Assembly: GCA_003023365.1 (NCBI GenBank)
Contig: PXTG01000097.1
Location: 1-34,591, forward strand
Source: Bacteroidetes bacterium QH_7_62_13
GTDB lineage: Bacteria; Bacteroidota; Rhodothermia; Rhodothermales; Salinibacteraceae
Length of the DNA: 34,591 bases
Reading direction: 5' to 3'
Position numbers and translations under genes: made by a program. The first letter of the stretch is position 1. Each line of letters opens with the position of its first letter. The notes below the pieces were generated by a model. It did not search any database and was not told the origin of the DNA. It was given only the letters and a program-made list of their open reading frames with translations. Positions 12,710 through 24,220 of the stretch are shown here, in pieces.

Positions 12710-13861
12710 ATGGGCAAGAAGGGACGCGTGCTCGTCGCCATGAGCGGTGGTGTCGACTCGTCGGTCACCGCCGTGCTGCTCGACGAGCGCGGCTACGACG
12801 TCGTCGGCCTCACCATGAAGACATGGGACTATTCCACCAGTGGCGGACGCGACGATAAGGAGGTGGGGTGCTGCTCCATCGAGTCGATGAATGACGCCCG
12901 CGTCGTGGCCACCAAGCACGGCTTCCCCCACTTCGTCGTCGACCTGCGGGAGGAATTCGGCGACTGGGTGATCGAGCGATTCACCAACGAATACCTCTCG
13001 GGACGTACGCCCAATCCGTGCGTGCTCTGCAACACCCACATCAAGTGGGACGCCCTCCTACAGCGGGCCGACGACCTGGACTGCGAATACATCGCCACCG
13101 GTCATTACGCCAACGTCCGCTACGACGAAGACCTGGAGCGGTACGTGCTGAGCCGAGGGAAGGACCTGAACAAGGATCAGAGCTACGCCCTCTGGGGACT
13201 GCCCCAGGAGCATCTGGCCCGGTCCCTCTTTCCACTCGGCGCCTACGAAAAGCCCGAGATTCGCGAAATGGCCGCCGAGTTCGGCCTCGATAACGTGGCC
13301 GACAAGCCCGACTCCTATGAGATCTGCTTCATTCCAGATAACGATTATCCCCGCTTCCTGAAAGATCGGGTCGATGGGCTGGAGGAGGAGGTGAGCGGCG
13401 GCAAGTTTGTTCTAAGCGACGGCACCGTCGTTGGCGAACACGACGGCTACCCCTTCTACACCATTGGCCAGCGCCGAGGGCTAGACCTCGCTCTCGGAGA
13501 ACGCGTCTACGTGACCGACATCGACCCGGAGACGAATACGATTACCGTGGGGCCGAGGGAGGAGCTCATGGAGCAGACCCTGACGGCCCACGAGATCAAC
13601 CTCGTGAAGTACCCCGAGCTCGACGAGGAACAACCCGCCTGGGGGACCATCCGCTACAACGACGACGGGGCCGGGTGCCTCGCGTGGCAGCCCGACGACG
13701 ACACCTTGAAGGTGGCCTTTAGTGAACCGCGTCGCGCCATCACGCCGGGCCAGAGCCTCGTGCTCTACGAAGACGACGACGTGCTCGGCGGCGGCTGGAT
13801 CCAGGAGGTAGGAAGCGAGACCCTCGAGACATCCGACCAAGTTGCCGATGCCCATGCCTGA
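12710..13861 (+). CDS. mnmA: tRNA-specific 2-thiouridylase MnmA
   Basis: PP-loop 'VLVAMSGGVDSSVTAVLL', catalytic Cys in 'GRTPNPCVLCNTHIKWDALL', second Cys in 'SYEICFIPDNDY'. Confidence 0.96.
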   Translation: MGKKGRVLVAMSGGVDSSVTAVLLDERGYDVVGLTMKTWDYSTSGGRDDKEVGCCSIESMNDARVVATKHGFPHFVVDLREEFGDWVIERFTNEYLSGRTPNPCVLCNTHIKWDALLQRADDLDCEYIATGHYANVRYDEDLERYVLSRGKDLNKDQSYALWGLPQEHLARSLFPLGAYEKPEIREMAAEFGLDNVADKPDSYEICFIPDNDYPRFLKDRVDGLEEEVSGGKFVLSDGTVVGEHDGYPFYTIGQRRGLDLALGERVYVTDIDPETNTITVGPREELMEQTLTAHEINLVKYPELDEEQPAWGTIRYNDDGAGCLAWQPDDDTLKVAFSEPRRAITPGQSLVLYEDDDVLGGGWIQEVGSETLETSDQVADAHA

Positions 13862-14252
13862 ACGTCCCGCCTCCCTGTCCGCGCACTCGTCCCTGTGGCT
13901 TGCTGCGATGAGCGTCACGCTTGCGCTCGTCGGCTGCGCCCCGAACGAGCAGCATACAAGCCCGGAAGAAGCAGCTTCGACTCCCCCTCCGGATACAACG
14001 ACCCGTTCTGTGACCGACGATACCATTCAGGGAACCGGGACCATTCGCTACGTGGACCTCGAAGGGGGCTTCTACGGCCTCGTCGCCTCCGACGGAACGA
14101 AGTACGACCCCACGCCCCTCCCCGATAGCCTTCAGGTAGACGACCTCTCCGTTCGCTTTCGGGTGGAGGAGAAAGACACAATGACCACCCGCATGTGGGG
14201 ATCCCCAGTCGAGGTGATCGAGATCGAACGAATCGACGACGAAAACGAGTAG
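13854..14252 (+). CDS. Small lipoprotein of unknown function, overlapping the mnmA 3' end
   Basis: MPERPASLSAHSSLWLAAMSVTLALVGCAPNEQ lipobox; beta-rich domain 'GTIRYVDLEGGFYGLVASDGTKYDPTPLPDSLQVDDLSVRFRV'. Start may be 13848 or 13854. Confidence 0.7.
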   Translation: MPERPASLSAHSSLWLAAMSVTLALVGCAPNEQHTSPEEAASTPPPDTTTRSVTDDTIQGTGTIRYVDLEGGFYGLVASDGTKYDPTPLPDSLQVDDLSVRFRVEEKDTMTTRMWGSPVEVIEIERIDDENE

Positions 14253-14412: not shown

Positions 14413-15852
14413 ATGGAACGGACGGATTTGACGCGGATCGACGAGTTCACCTGGGAAATTCCGGACTCGTTCCGAGAATCGATGCGTGTTCCGGTGCGCA
14501 TCATTGCCAACGAGGATCTCATCGGAGACATCATTCGAGGAGAGGCGATCGATCAGGCCATCCAGACGGCGATGCTGCCCGGACTGGTTGGCCATCTTGT
14601 CGTTATGCCCGACGTGTACAGCGGCCAGGGCGCTCCCGTCGGCATTGTGGCCGTTTCGAAGTGGCCAGTGGGCACGATTGCCCCGGGCGCCATCGGCCAC
14701 GACATCAACACCGGCGTGCGCCTGCTCGGGTCGGACATTGACCTGAGCGAAGCCGAGGGCAACTTCGACGTTCTTGCCGACGCCTTGAAGGCGCACATTC
14801 CGAGCGGCTCCGAGGCCGAGGGCTCCCTTCACCTGAACAAGAGCGAGGTGGATCACGTGGCGCAGTCCGGCGCGCAATGGGCCCTCCGCAAGGACATGGC
14901 CCAGCAGGATGACCTCGTGCGGGCCGAAGAGGGCGGACGCCTCAACGAGGCCGACCCCGGGAAAGTGAGTGACGCGGCCCGATCGCTCGGCGCCCAGCAG
15001 CTCGGCACGCTTGGGGGCGGCGAACACTTCATCGAGATTCACGCCGTCGAAGAGGTCTTCAATCGCGCCGCCGCCGTAACGATGGGCTTGAAGGAGGATA
15101 CGATTGTCGCCCAAATTCATTGCGGCTCGCGGGGCTACGGCCGTCAGGTGTGTGCCGATTACATCGAGCGATTTCAGGACGTCGCTCCCAACTACGACAT
15201 TACACCGCCCGATCCGAACCTCGCCTGCGTGCCCCTCGAGTCGACGGAGGCGGAAGACTACATGGGCGCCATGCGGGCGGCTGCCAATTACGCCTACGCC
15301 AATCGGCAGGTGCTGGCCCACCGGGTCCGAGAAGTGTTTGACGACGCGCTGGAGGGAATGGGCAACCGCCTCAAGACGGTGTACGACGTGGCCCACAACC
15401 TCGGCCAGATTGAGATGCACCAGGTAGAGGGGAAGCACATGCGTTGCTACGTCCACCGGAAGGGGGCCGCGCGCGCCTTCGGTCCGGGCACACCCGGTAT
15501 TTCCTTACCGTACCGTGCTCTCGGTCAGCCGGTCCTCGTGCCCGGCAGCATGGGCGAGACATCCTGGGTGATGCTCGCCACGCGCGAGAGCATGCAGAAA
15601 AGCTTCGGGTCTGCGTGCCACGGGGCCGGTCGCACGATGAGTCGCCACGAAGCCAACCACCACGCCGACCCCGTAACGCTCGACGATGAACTTGAAGGGC
15701 AGGGCATACACGTTCGCTCCGGGGACGGTGCCTCTTCGGGAGGCGGCGTCAAGATCAAGGAAAACACCGACGCCATCGTCGAAACCGTGGCGGGTGCCCG
15801 CCTGGCGAGCAAGGTGGCTCGCCTGCGCCCCCTCGCTGTGGTCCATGGATAG
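14413..15852 (+). CDS. rtcB: RtcB-family RNA ligase (variant active site)
   Basis: 479 aa; 'VVMPDVYSGQGAPVG', 'GHDINTGVRLL', 'QLGTLGGGEHFIEI', 'IHCGSRGYG', 'VYDVAHNLGQIEMHQVEGKHMRCYVHRKGAARAFGPG', 'ACHGAGRTMSR'. Confidence 0.92.
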   Translation: MERTDLTRIDEFTWEIPDSFRESMRVPVRIIANEDLIGDIIRGEAIDQAIQTAMLPGLVGHLVVMPDVYSGQGAPVGIVAVSKWPVGTIAPGAIGHDINTGVRLLGSDIDLSEAEGNFDVLADALKAHIPSGSEAEGSLHLNKSEVDHVAQSGAQWALRKDMAQQDDLVRAEEGGRLNEADPGKVSDAARSLGAQQLGTLGGGEHFIEIHAVEEVFNRAAAVTMGLKEDTIVAQIHCGSRGYGRQVCADYIERFQDVAPNYDITPPDPNLACVPLESTEAEDYMGAMRAAANYAYANRQVLAHRVREVFDDALEGMGNRLKTVYDVAHNLGQIEMHQVEGKHMRCYVHRKGAARAFGPGTPGISLPYRALGQPVLVPGSMGETSWVMLATRESMQKSFGSACHGAGRTMSRHEANHHADPVTLDDELEGQGIHVRSGDGASSGGGVKIKENTDAIVETVAGARLASKVARLRPLAVVHG

Positions 15853-16025
15853 CGGCTCGTTTTCGGTCTCCAGGTGCCGGTGCACCGGCGTGGACCACGT
15901 ACGACCCCTGGCCGAGACGTTTCACGACCTTCACGGCCTTCTCAGCACAGGGGAGACACATGCCTGGGTCCGCCGCGTTGGTGGGGGTACTATCACCGGC
16001 TCGATCACCACTTCCGTTCCGTCCC

Positions 16026-16763
16026 ATGTCCGACCCCCAACAAGGTCCTCACCTTCTTCTCGTTGAAGACGACAGCGAGCTCAGCACGAGTCTCGTCCTC
16101 TACCTGGAGTCGGAAGGATACGAGGTGACGCTGGCTGAGGACGGGGAGGAGGCAGAGGAGGCAGCAACGCGACTCCCCGGGTATGACCTCATCATCCTGG
16201 ATGCCAAATTGCCGGAGCAGAACGGCTTCGAAGTGCTACGCCAAGCCCGCGAACAGGGCGTACGCACTCCTGTGCTGATGCTCACCGGCCTTGGTGATCA
16301 CGAGGATAAGATGCGGGGCTTTCAGGTAGGCACCGACGATTACCTTACCAAGCCGTTCGAGACGGAAGAACTCCTCGCCCGCATCGACGCCCTCCTTCGT
16401 CGCGAGGCACAGGCCGACGAAGAAGGCGGCGTGTTCGACGTCGGCGGCCTTCGCGTGAACCTCAACGCCGACGAGGTGACGAAAACGGATGGGTCCTCAG
16501 TCGAACTGACGGATCTTGAATACGCTTTGCTTGCCTACCTGCTCCGGCGCCGCGGCCGGACGGCCACCCGTGAGCAGATTCTCCGCGACGTGTGGGACCT
16601 GCCCTCCGAGGTCGAAACGCGGACGATTGACCGACACGTCAACGCCCTGCGTGACGTGATGGCCGGGGAAGACGAGGACTCCTGGGCCATCCAGAGCGTG
16701 TACGGCATCGGGTACAAACTCGAAGGGGCCGAGCGCGTCGAGGAGTCAACGGAAACGACTTGA
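16026..16763 (+). CDS. OmpR/PhoB-family response regulator (no adjacent kinase)
   Basis: Receiver 'LLVEDDSELSTSLVLYLESEGYEV...DLIILDAKLPEQNGFEVL...LTGLGD...GTDDYLTKPF' plus winged helix 'TIDRHVNALRDVM...IQSVYGIGYKLE'. Confidence 0.94.
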   Translation: MSDPQQGPHLLLVEDDSELSTSLVLYLESEGYEVTLAEDGEEAEEAATRLPGYDLIILDAKLPEQNGFEVLRQAREQGVRTPVLMLTGLGDHEDKMRGFQVGTDDYLTKPFETEELLARIDALLRREAQADEEGGVFDVGGLRVNLNADEVTKTDGSSVELTDLEYALLAYLLRRRGRTATREQILRDVWDLPSEVETRTIDRHVNALRDVMAGEDEDSWAIQSVYGIGYKLEGAERVEESTETT

Positions 16764-19566: not shown

Positions 19567-20808
19567 ATGATGTCTCTCGTCGTCCGCGTCCTCTCCGTCC
19601 TGCTCGTCGCCCTCCTTCTCTCGGGGTGTGACGCGACGGGCCCACAACCAAACACCGCGGCGGCCCCGCCCACGGTTGAGCTGACCGCGGCGCAGCAGGA
19701 CGTGCTCGACGGGACGGGCACGACGTTTGGGCTCGACCTCTTCGGCACGCTCAACGAGGAAAAAGGGGCTGACCAGAACGTCGTCGTCTCCCCCTTCAGC
19801 GTCTCGACGGCCCTGACGATGGCTCTGAACGGGGCACGAGACTCGACGCGCCGGGCCCTGAAGCAGGCGCTGGGCGTTTCCGATCACTCCATGCGCGAGA
19901 TCAACGAGGCGCACCGCCGGCTCGTCGGGGCGCTTCCGGAGCTCGACACGACCGCTACCCTCCGGTCGGCCAACTCGCTTTGGGCCCAGAACGGCTATCC
20001 CGTGAAGGCGGCGTTCACGGACACGCTTCGCTCGGTGTTCGGGGCGGAGGCGCGCAGGATCGACTTTGCGTCCCCGGAGGCGCCCGACCGCATCAACGGC
20101 TGGGTGGCCGACCAGACGGAGGGCATGATTCAAACGCTCGTCAAGGACAAAGACCTGGACGGGAACACCGTCCTCGCGCTGCTGAATGCCCTCTACTTCG
20201 AGGCCCCGTGGCAGACGGCGTTCGACGAGGAACAGACCGAAGACGCGTCCTTCGCCCGTCCGGGCCGCCCGGCGGCACGGGTGCCGATGATGCACCGGAC
20301 GGACAGTCTCCGCTACGGGTCCACCGATCGGGCGAAGATGGTCGATCTGCCGTACGGAAACGGGGCCTTCCGGATGACGGTGGTCGTCCCCGAGGAGGAA
20401 ACGAATGCCCACGCGCTGGCCACCGACCTGGACGCGGCCACCTGGGCCCGGTGGCTCGACGGGCTCGAGACCCGGAGGGTGCAGGTGCGGCTCCCTCGCT
20501 TCGACGTGACGGTGCCGCGCGCCAATTTGAACGAAGTACTCCGGACGATGGGACTGGGCATCATCTTCTTACCGTGGGCGAACTTCTCGGGCCTTTCTCC
20601 CAGGAACCCCTCCGTCAAGAAGGCGCTCCACAAGGCGGCGATCGTCGTCGACGAGGACGGCACCGAGGCCAGCGCGGCGACGGCGGTCATTTTTGAGGAG
20701 AGCACGCCGCCCACCGTGCGGGCCGACCGGCCGTTCCTGTTCGCGATCCGGGAGGCGCAGACGGGGACGCTGCTGTTTCTGGGCCGGATTGCCGACCCGA
20801 CCGCCTGA
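19567..20808 (+). CDS. Serpin-family protease inhibitor, lipoprotein
   Basis: Lipobox 'LLLSGCDATGPQ'; serpin motifs 'NVVVSPFSVSTALTMALNGARDSTRRALKQAL', 'INGWVADQTEGMI', 'VLALLNALYFEAPWQTAF', hinge 'VDEDGTEASAATAV', 'RADRPFLFAIREAQTGTLLFLGRIADP'. Confidence 0.95.
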   Translation: MMSLVVRVLSVLLVALLLSGCDATGPQPNTAAAPPTVELTAAQQDVLDGTGTTFGLDLFGTLNEEKGADQNVVVSPFSVSTALTMALNGARDSTRRALKQALGVSDHSMREINEAHRRLVGALPELDTTATLRSANSLWAQNGYPVKAAFTDTLRSVFGAEARRIDFASPEAPDRINGWVADQTEGMIQTLVKDKDLDGNTVLALLNALYFEAPWQTAFDEEQTEDASFARPGRPAARVPMMHRTDSLRYGSTDRAKMVDLPYGNGAFRMTVVVPEEETNAHALATDLDAATWARWLDGLETRRVQVRLPRFDVTVPRANLNEVLRTMGLGIIFLPWANFSGLSPRNPSVKKALHKAAIVVDEDGTEASAATAVIFEESTPPTVRADRPFLFAIREAQTGTLLFLGRIADPTA

Positions 20809-21148
20809 TCCCAACGACCGGAAATCACGATCCACGGTACCGGGTGCTCCGAAGTTCAGTTTTGAATGCCTCTTTCGAACGGCGAAGAGTCCGGCTCGGG
20901 GCCGGAATGAACCAGTCCTTCTGGCACTCAAGACGCGAGACTCCCGATCGTGCTCATCATCGATCGTTACCACCGGGCCCGAAAGATCGTATCCGACGAG
21001 ACAAAAACTCGCGGCAGGTAATAATTTTTACCCCGTCTACGTTCACCCAGAGGGTCTCCTCCCCTCTCACCAGGGGGACCCTTTGAGAACGGTCCATCGC
21101 GCAGGGGCCTCTCTTCCTTTTTCCCTCTGCTTGCCGACGTTTGGATTT

Positions 21149-22240
21149 ATGACGACCACGGCCTCCCACCCCGATGATGACGCAGGGTTTCTGCCCGTTT
21201 CGCTGAGTTCCGGCATGTCAATCCAGAAACTCCACCTTATTCTGGGGCACCTATACCTCCTCCCGTGGTTCGCCCGGCGTTGTTTCGACTGCGAGCTACC
21301 GCTCAAACCGTTCCTGGACGCCAACCCAGCACTCAAGCTCGGCGGACTTCCAATTGCGTCGAAGCTCTCCCGCTACGGAGCGGAGCCTCCCTACCTTCCC
21401 ACCCTCACGATAGACCGCGAAACGGAGCAGTCGACGATCGAGGAATTTGTAGCCGAACACCCGTTTCCGCTCGTTACGAAGCCCCTGTTCGGGGCCCGCA
21501 GCCGAAACGTGCAACGGGTGTCCACCTTCGACGAAATCAGTGCGGCGGTGAGAGACGAACCGATGGTCCTGCAACCCTACGTCGACGCTCCGAAAGAGTA
21601 CGGGATCAACGTCATGCGGGTCGGGCCCCGCCTCAAGATCTACGGCCTCACGGAAGTCCCCGTTCGGACGGTATGGGGAGATGGCGAACGGTCCCTCCGT
21701 GAGCTTACCGAAGACGCCTACGGAGCTGAGATCGCTTCACAGGTCAAGAGGGGATCCTGGCTCCCCCCGGACGGGCAGCGTGTATCGATCCAGGTTGCTG
21801 CCTGCCCGGGTGAGGGCGGTTCCTGCCTGGACGTAACCGACAAGGTCACTCCTGAGCTCCGAGCGACGTGCGAGGACGCGGCCGATCAGATCGGGCTTCG
21901 CTTCGGACGATTTGACGTGAAAGCTCACTCCCTGGAGGCCCTGCAAGAAGGAGATTTCCACGTCTTGGAGGTGAACGGGTCCCCCTCTTTAGATCTTACA
22001 CTCTACGACAACCGGTACCCCCTTTCGGTCAAGATCGAGCGATTGCGTGCCCACTGGGACGAATTTTTCCACCAGGCCCGCTCCAGCCGGTCGAGGGAGG
22101 AAAACAGTTGGGCGCTCTTAGCGACGCTTCTCTGGTTCTCGGTCTCGCCAAAGCGGTGCGTCGCTTCCTTCCGGCACGAAGTCCACGATGGTGAACTCAC
22201 TCCTCGTTCCCAATCGGAAGGGGGGGCCCCAGGTAGCTGA
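21149..22240 (+). CDS. ATP-grasp domain protein
   Basis: ATG 21149 within ORF 20693-22240; 'FPLVTKPLFGARSRNVQRVSTFDEI', 'MVLQPYVDAPKEYGINVMRVG', 'GLRFGRFDVKAHS', 'FHVLEVNGSPSLDLTLY' fit an ATP-grasp (Ddl/cyanophycin synthetase-like) fold. Confidence 0.85.
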   Translation: MTTTASHPDDDAGFLPVSLSSGMSIQKLHLILGHLYLLPWFARRCFDCELPLKPFLDANPALKLGGLPIASKLSRYGAEPPYLPTLTIDRETEQSTIEEFVAEHPFPLVTKPLFGARSRNVQRVSTFDEISAAVRDEPMVLQPYVDAPKEYGINVMRVGPRLKIYGLTEVPVRTVWGDGERSLRELTEDAYGAEIASQVKRGSWLPPDGQRVSIQVAACPGEGGSCLDVTDKVTPELRATCEDAADQIGLRFGRFDVKAHSLEALQEGDFHVLEVNGSPSLDLTLYDNRYPLSVKIERLRAHWDEFFHQARSSRSREENSWALLATLLWFSVSPKRCVASFRHEVHDGELTPRSQSEGGAPGS

Positions 22241-23203
22241 TCCCTGACTGACGTGTACCATCGTGTCCCCGTACCAGCACGTTCCATCGATTTGCGGGAA
22301 CTCGATAGAAGCGAGGTAGCCGAGCGGCCAGACCTGCCCGCCGTGGACGTGCCCACAAAAAACAGCGTCCGGGTCAGCTTCGAGCAGGGTGTCAAGTCGT
22401 TCCGGTTTGTGCTTGAGCACGATCCGAGGGCGCTGCCGGCCCCGCAATGACTGAACGAGTGCCTCGCTCTCCTCGTTGCTCGTCTGGTACCCGATACCCA
22501 GGACGCTCATCCACTCTTTTTCCTCGAGCGCCCCCTCCAGCGGCGTGACGCCCACGTCCCGAAGCGCCTCAAGCAGCGCTTCGCGTTCGGTGTAGCTGTC
22601 ATGATTCCCCGACACGAAGTACACCGGTACGTCGTATTCCTCCAACGGGGCGACGAGCTCCGGATCGACCGGTTCCATGCCGTCGAGCAGATCGCCGGTA
22701 ATGACGACACAGTCCGGCCGGTAGTGGCTCGTCGTCCGCACGATGCGGGCGAGGTCGCGCTTCGACCAGATGTCTCCGATGTGGAGATCGGTCAACTGCA
22801 GAAAGCGAAGGGAGGTGTTGTAGGCTCCCTCGACACGGCGGTAGCGGGCTCGGGGATGCTTGGCCCGGAGGAATCCTACGACGCCAAGCAGGCCAGCCGA
22901 CAGCCAGATCGCCCCGTCCCCGATCAGGAAGCCGGCCTGGCTAAGTAGAAATTGGCCGACGAACGCAAACCCGGCGAGAAAGGCGAGCCCCGACCACACG
23001 AAGGCCGTACGAACTAGGAACCGGGTGAGGAAGTTACGGGGGGCCTTGATGAGGGCGTACCCGACGACCGTCATGCTTCCCAGCGTACCGATGAGCACGT
23101 CCCCCGAAAACGGATCCGTACACTCGATGAGGACATAGTGCAGTCCGAGGAAGAGACTGCCGACGACAATCGCAATCTGGCCGAAGACGGTGATGCCGAA
23201 CAT
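22118..23203 (-). CDS. Membrane-anchored calcineurin-like metallophosphoesterase
   Basis: 'LQLTDLHIGDIW', 'VVITGDLLDGMEP', 'YFVSGNHDSYTE', 'VFCGHVHGGQVWPLG'; N-terminal TM segments. Confidence 0.93.
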   Translation of the reverse strand: MFGITVFGQIAIVVGSLFLGLHYVLIECTDPFSGDVLIGTLGSMTVVGYALIKAPRNFLTRFLVRTAFVWSGLAFLAGFAFVGQFLLSQAGFLIGDGAIWLSAGLLGVVGFLRAKHPRARYRRVEGAYNTSLRFLQLTDLHIGDIWSKRDLARIVRTTSHYRPDCVVITGDLLDGMEPVDPELVAPLEEYDVPVYFVSGNHDSYTEREALLEALRDVGVTPLEGALEEKEWMSVLGIGYQTSNEESEALVQSLRGRQRPRIVLKHKPERLDTLLEADPDAVFCGHVHGGQVWPLGYLASIEFPQIDGTCWYGDTMVHVSQGSATWGPPFRLGTRSEFTIVDFVPEGSDAPLWRDREPEKRR

Positions 23204-23281
23204 GACGTACTGGGAGAATACTCGACGGAGCGAAACAGAGAATACGTGTTTCGGAACGGAAATCAGTACATGCAGGCCTCT

Positions 23282-24220
23282 TCAGTCTGTCTCTTCGGGC
23301 AACCAGGCAGAAAGATCTCGGTCAATCAGTTCCTCAAGATGCCGGACGTGGGGCGCGTAGCGACGCCGGAGCTGTCGTTCGAGTTTCGGATTGAGTGAAG
23401 AACGACTCCCATCACCTCCCCGGGCCGACCGCCGCACGATCTGCTCAATCCACAGCCGGAGCGCCTCCGGGGTCCACCGCCGGGCAAGAGGAGGCAACCA
23501 GGACGGAAGAACAGAAAGGACTATGCCCAAGATCCGGCTCGCTTGCTCGTCGGTGCGGTTGAGCCGGGCGGAAGTGTCGATGGGTTCTTTCGGATCCACC
23601 CCCAAGAACTGGAAAACGGAGTAGAGAACATGGTGCGGGTGTTCCCGCAAGTTCTCGGAGAGCATAATGAAGAACCGTTCCCGGGGAAAGAACTCAAGCC
23701 ACCTCGACAGCGTCTGTGCGTAGAGCCCGTCCTGAAAGTACGACTTCCATTCGTGCCGCTTCCGCTCCGGGCGAGCGTCCTCCGCCTCCAGGGCCTCCTC
23801 GAATGAGAGCGGTTCGGTACCCTGCGAGACCTTATGCAGGTAGTGCGAGTAGGCGCGCCGAACCGGATCCCGAAGTATGAGGAGGAACTGGGGAGAGGAG
23901 GTCCCGTACACCCGGCGCATCCGACTCGGGACGAGATCGGGGGCTCGGAAGTACAGGGGCGTGGCTTCCCCGCTTACCCGACCGTCCGCACCGCGAAAGT
24001 ATTCAAGATACCACTCCAATCCGGATTCAAAATTCTCTTTGGGCGCGTTGAAGAAATCCAACTCCTTCACCTCCGGGAGGTGGAGCGCGGAATGCTGGCG
24101 GAGATAGTGATGGAGCGAGGTGGTTCCACTTTTCGCGGCCCCGAGTACAAAAAAATCGGGGAGATCCGTCGACGTGAGTGCTTGACCAGAGTGCGCCGAC
24201 CGCCGGGAAACTGAAAGCAT
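23282..24220 (-). CDS. Sulfotransferase domain protein
   Basis: 'PDFFVLGAAKSGTTSLHHYLRQHSALHLPEVKELDFF' (5'-PSB PAPS-binding loop) and 'FLLILRDPVRRAYSHYLHK' (3'-PB motif). Confidence 0.93.
   Translation of the reverse strand: MLSVSRRSAHSGQALTSTDLPDFFVLGAAKSGTTSLHHYLRQHSALHLPEVKELDFFNAPKENFESGLEWYLEYFRGADGRVSGEATPLYFRAPDLVPSRMRRVYGTSSPQFLLILRDPVRRAYSHYLHKVSQGTEPLSFEEALEAEDARPERKRHEWKSYFQDGLYAQTLSRWLEFFPRERFFIMLSENLREHPHHVLYSVFQFLGVDPKEPIDTSARLNRTDEQASRILGIVLSVLPSWLPPLARRWTPEALRLWIEQIVRRSARGGDGSRSSLNPKLERQLRRRYAPHVRHLEELIDRDLSAWLPEETD

Follow-up and report, generated by a model that had tools for sequence, protein, structure and literature searches.

A Cys-less RtcB clade of halophilic Salinibacteraceae probably has a job other than that of the known RtcB RNA ligase

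Hydrolysis of 2',3'-cyclic phosphates is the first half-reaction of RtcB, whose known members ligate 3'-P and 5'-OH RNA ends by means of a GTP-dependent guanylylation of a His residue. In human RTCB, GMP is bound by Asn226 and Lys504 (PMC8668186); Asn226 (Asn202 in P. horikoshii RtcB, the numbering used here for comparison) binds phosphate, and Lys504, Glu230, and Ser409 (Lys480, Glu206, and Ser385, respectively) bind guanine (PMC8668186; PMC10944509). When Cys122 of the human enzyme was replaced by alanine, guanylylation became undetectable, and none of the alanine mutants of the metal ligands was able to ligate (PMC10944509). Among the bacterial members of the family, RtcB of E. coli and RtcB3 of M. 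xanthus function independently of archease, and the latter, going by its description as cited in PMC10630183, provides a precedent for a paralogue whose activity has shifted. No account of a Cys-less RtcB was found in the literature searched, the coverage of which did not extend to the main mutagenesis studies of the E. coli and M. xanthus enzymes.

The window, i.e., the whole stretch of 34,591 nucleotides analysed here (contig PXTG01000097.1 of Bacteroidetes bacterium QH_7_62_13), comes from a fragmentary host genome assembly that is 62% complete. It carries the following gene:

14413..15852, + strand: Cys-less RtcB-family gene, 479 aa (translation, profile, alignment, AlphaFold model)

The translation has no internal stop, and the RtcB profile PF01139 matches it over its full length (residues 48-479, E = 4.8e-137) with 458 bits, above the curated cut-off of 27. 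The AlphaFold model (mean pLDDT 82.9, pTM 0.88) adopts the RtcB fold, and its significant structural matches are RtcBs only, with 4dwq (RtcB-GMP/Mn) as the best PDB match (TM 0.93, rmsd 2.3). P. horikoshii PH1602, human RTCB, and T. thermophilus TTHA1785 are alike in fold and can be aligned over the full length at approximately 35-43% identity. These alignments reveal substitutions at the following positions:

14617..14619, + strand: Tyr69 (TAC) in place of the invariant His67 of PDxHxGYG (alignment)
14710..14712, + strand: Thr100 (ACC) in place of the metal-bridging Cys98 (alignment)
15022..15024, + strand: Glu204 (GAA) in place of the alpha-phosphate Asn202 (alignment)
15757..15759, + strand: Lys449 (AAG) in place of the invariant Tyr451 (alignment)
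15844..15846, + strand: His478 (CAT) in place of the invariant guanine-contacting Lys480 (alignment; human Lys504 contact, PMC8668186)

The first-pass annotation of this DNA had read Thr at the Cys site and Glu at the Asn site, and the comparison with P. horikoshii, T. thermophilus, and human RtcB bears this out: GHDIN-T100-GVRL stands opposite GYDIN-C98-GVRL of P. horikoshii, and LGGG-E204-HFIEI opposite LGSG-N202-HFLEV. It had also allowed that neighbouring residues might supply the missing Cys and Asn, which is ruled out as the alignments are free of gaps at both motifs. Cys237, which is invariant in the Cys-less copies, was considered as a relocated thiolate and rejected, since the same Cys is found in the canonical RtcBs L107, L108, and L141 that keep Cys98; in the model, moreover, it directly follows the ligand His236 in a strand (residues 230-237) and should therefore face away, making such a role unlikely. 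Cys and Asn occupy the two sites in 41 of 41 canonical RtcBs (from the family, the phylum, P. horikoshii, Thermus, and human), in ten further plasmid/phage and nine viral RtcBs (25-33% identity), and also in haloarchaeal RtcBs.

At the site of the Cys that bridges both metal ions, the 20 full-length Cys-less orthologues have Thr (11), Ala (7), Val (1), or Ser (1), with Ala in the Salinibacter forms, which thus naturally carry the residue of the human C122A mutant. As Ala and Val are tolerated there as well, Thr does not stand in for Cys as a metal ligand. The Asn that binds the alpha-phosphate is replaced by Glu in 17 copies, Ala in two, and Gln in one. In total, 24 of approximately 116 positions that are invariant in canonical RtcBs are changed in most Cys-less copies, including His67, Tyr70, Phe72, Cys98, Asn202, Tyr451, Lys452, and Lys480. 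The Tyr451 site is Lys in all 20 full-length copies, and the C-terminal Lys480 that contacts guanine is His in 18 and missing in two. Compared with archaeal/metazoan-type RtcBs, the protein shares the four metal ligands, the nucleophile His, and most residues of the RNA and nucleotide loops but lacks the bridging Cys and the alpha-phosphate Asn, has His for the guanine Lys, Lys-Glu for Tyr-Lys, and Tyr for the PDxH His, and, judging by gene distribution, does not need archease. E. coli RtcB, unlike the Cys-less protein, retains Cys, Asn, Tyr-Lys, and Lys.

Judged by its sequence, the Cys-less protein lacks residues that define the RtcB ligase class. As the human GMP contacts Asn226 and Lys504 correspond to the lost Asn202 and Lys480, the nucleotide pocket of the clade is partly dismantled, and the changes beyond Cys and Asn (K480H, Y451K, K452E, and E446G), which the first-pass annotation had overlooked, point to a lost or altered use of the nucleotide more than to a simple swap of metal. 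The catalytic residues that were kept are the following:

14701..14703, + strand: Asp97, metal ligand (P. horikoshii Asp95; alignment)
15025..15027, + strand: His205, metal ligand (His203; alignment)
15118..15120, + strand: His236, metal ligand (His234; alignment)
15394..15396, + strand: His328, metal ligand (His329; alignment)
15619..15621, + strand: His403 of HGAGR, nucleophile, guanylylated in canonical RtcB (His404; alignment)

The first-pass annotation was right that the Asp, the His ligands, and the nucleophile are kept. Ten residues are unchanged in 20 of 20 full-length copies, namely these five (Asp95, His203, His234, His329, and His404 in P. horikoshii) together with Glu206, Arg238, Lys351, Ser385, and Arg408. 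The chance of retaining all ten is approximately 1e-5 when compared with an average position and approximately 0.018 when compared with canonical-invariant positions, so that the retention counts as support for catalysis rather than as proof. It bears directly on whether the protein is a non-catalytic RtcB that was kept for binding RNA ends or tRNA or for regulation, perhaps with other partners. Such a role has a precedent in E. coli RtcB, which binds the regulator RtcR independently of its catalytic activity (PMC9650030), and would agree with the partial dismantling of the GTP pocket, with the absence of a thiolate whose loss kills human RTCB (PMC10944509), and with damaged nucleophile loops in the diverged copy L021, which lacks part of the HGAGR loop, and in the sister group g9 described below. 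However, invariance of the four metal ligands, the nucleophile His, Lys351, Arg238, and Arg408 would not be expected in a pseudo-ligase, for which catalysis and metal binding would be dispensable, and we regard this explanation as possible but on the doubtful side.

Within a single halophilic family (Salinivenus, Salinibacter, and Longimonas), 22 of 27 genomes have a Cys-less orthologue; two of these copies, L021 and L030, are more diverged or in pieces. Carriers include Salinivenus lutea (G001), S. iranica (G012), and Salinibacter altiplanensis (G006), all assigned to the window's own genus, and Longimonas halophila (G014) from its family. The window itself can thus be placed in a halophilic bacterium of the Salinibacter/Salinivenus group. 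Two further genomes (genus g9) have a sister form with Cys, and the incomplete genomes G017, G019, and G024 yielded no orthologue. When the DNA of 84,980 species genomes was scanned for GxD[I/V]N[T/A/S]GVRL, 30 matches were obtained, of which 12 are RtcB, all from the Salinibacter/Salinivenus family group, and the remainder had no RtcB match; the scan missed known carriers such as G002 (which we take to be S. ruber DSM 13855) and is therefore only a partial census. A viral or plasmid origin was rejected, as the best matches reach 25-33% identity on viral contigs, 38% in phages, and approximately 40% on plasmids and are canonical where read.

That the gene is an assembly error, a contaminant, or in decay is hardly credible. 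The fragmentary host genome would leave room for it, but the same substitutions are found in independently assembled relatives, including near-complete genomes and cultured species, and are therefore not sequencing errors; the reading frames are intact, and dN/dS of the Cys-less gene is far below 1 (0.013-0.092). In four genomes where both could be compared, values were 0.029-0.113 for the Cys-less gene versus 0.086-0.153 for the canonical paralogue, so that constraint on the former is no weaker than on the latter and purifying selection on it is strong. With dN/dS of 0.013-0.113 overall and the remaining catalytic residues invariant in the 20 full-length copies, the earlier view that this is not a dead copy holds.

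The Cys-less copies form one clade (support 98/89; 98/88 without the most divergent RtcBs), which is sister to g9 (100/99, 100/100) and separate from all canonical RtcBs, including those of the family itself. The divergent clade proposed in the first-pass annotation was thus recovered, but its pairing of Thr with Glu as coordinated changes was not: the Cys site varies among T, A, S, and V and the Asn site among E, Q, and A, and g9 has Cys combined with Gly for Asn. The g9 orthologues (L022 and L023) resemble the Cys-less clade in the loss of Asn and in His for Lys480, and the G020 copy lies at the same mnmA/response-regulator locus; they differ in retaining Cys and in having lost Arg238 and the HGAGR sequence. 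Since g9 retains Cys but has lost Asn and Lys480, the alignment suggests most simply that losses in the nucleotide pocket came before that of the Cys. The g9 orthologues also follow a separate pattern of active-site change, with Arg238 replaced by Ala, Asp65 by Asn, and CHGAGR by THSGAR.

Two neighbours of the Cys-less gene are conserved:

12710..13861, + strand: mnmA, upstream neighbour (present in 17/20 loci examined)
15960..16763, + strand: OmpR-type response regulator, downstream neighbour (profile match, relatives' loci)

The response regulator is found downstream in most of the 20 loci examined, including that of the g9 member G020, and no RNA-repair gene adjoins the Cys-less gene in these loci. 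A small lipoprotein-like ORF (13842-14252, lipobox LVGC) lies between mnmA and the RtcB gene and is also found upstream in six relatives' loci. Further along the window, a stretch at 19567-24220 encoding a serpin, an ATP-grasp-like protein, a calcineurin-like phosphoesterase, and a sulfotransferase has no counterpart at the relatives' locus, where DAHP synthase comes more directly, marking the stretch as a window-specific island.

Canonical paralogues (e.g., L033-L040) occur in the same organisms with 40-44% identity to the Cys-less form. They retain Cys, Asn, Tyr-Lys, and Lys480, lie mostly beside archease, are patchily distributed, and sometimes carry an intein. In several genomes of the order the intein of such paralogues (L043-L048) sits exactly at DIN/C, so that the active-site Cys is the first residue after the intein; no Cys-less copy has an intein. 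Of the genomes G000-G024, 11 have both archease and a canonical RtcB, with the two genes adjoining in most; G018 has archease alone, located at the end of a contig; and 13 have neither, six of these being at least 90% complete. In the near-complete G002, G003, G006, G010, G014, and G015, the Cys-less form is the only RtcB and archease was not found, nor was an archease gene found in the window's own 62% complete genome. By this distribution, the Cys-less protein is a core member and the canonical RtcB-archease pair is accessory. RtcA was discarded as a partner, as almost every genome of the family lacks it. In G008, the canonical RtcB (L042) reads GGYDVNCGARL and has a gap after PDIHWDYG, and archease is in two pieces, which suggests that the pair is decaying there.

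The presence of the Cys-less form as the only RtcB in several genomes would also fit a protein that continues to act as a 3'-P/5'-OH RNA ligase, its metal site rebuilt around Glu204 in place of the thiolate and its nucleotide preference altered. Together with the binding-only role, this is the main alternative to the reading preferred below. The HGAGR loop, Glu206, Ser385, Lys351, and Arg238 are retained, and the predicted fold matches that of the guanylylated RtcB in 4dwq. Nevertheless, we consider such a ligase unlikely: none of Cys98, Asn202, Tyr451, Lys452, and Lys480 is retained, some members have Gln or Ala at the Glu204 site, and many relatives have a separate canonical RtcB with archease for ligation.

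As the carriers are halophiles, the loss of Cys could also be an adaptation to salt or oxidation that keeps a ligase, normal in other respects, from being inactivated by oxidation. The Cys of RTCB is prone to metal-induced oxidation, from which PYROXD1 protects it in metazoa (PMC12263435; PMC8668186). Yet canonical RtcBs with Cys are found both in haloarchaea and alongside the Cys-less form in these halophilic genomes, which rules out halophily as the cause, and the Cys loss is accompanied by losses in the GTP pocket that are unrelated to thiol oxidation, leaving this adaptation very improbable.

Because the Cys and several other residues needed by the known enzyme are lost, the Cys-less clade probably has a different job. 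Our preferred reading, to which we give slightly less than even credence, is that this family-specific paralogue gave up GTP-dependent His guanylylation and ordinary 3'-P/5'-OH ligation and may remain a metal-dependent RNA-end enzyme. It would account for the loss of guanylylation residues alongside metal ligands and a nucleophile retained in 20 of 20 full-length copies, and agrees with the natural Ala of Salinibacter, with dN/dS as low as or below that of the co-resident canonical paralogue, and with the six near-complete genomes that have only this RtcB. Evidence against it comes from Glu206, Ser385, Arg408, and the HGAGR loop, which are retained as though nucleotide binding persisted, from the incomplete loop of L021, and from the only modestly unusual retention of the ten residues. 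More specifically, and with considerable doubt as to the details, the clade might have a new chemistry, in which a metal centre free of Cys, built from two His and Glu together with Asp and His, processes RNA 3' ends without GTP, as the sole core RtcB in much of the halophilic family. Without the bridging thiolate, the metal would be held via His236, His328, Asp97, and His205. Glu204, next to His205 at the position of the former phosphate-binding Asn, would likely contribute a further carboxylate ligand in most members but not throughout the clade, as three copies have Gln or Ala there. Phosphate at RNA 3' ends, e.g., in 2',3'-cyclic phosphates, could then be hydrolysed or transferred with no His-GMP intermediate.

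A clade that has Ala, Thr, Ser, or Val at the Cys site and persists where the canonical RtcB is gone is in effect an experiment set up by nature, one that separates the parts of the active site needed for guanylylation from those used in other steps. For Salinibacter and its relatives, the automatic annotation as 'RtcB RNA ligase' is probably functionally wrong.
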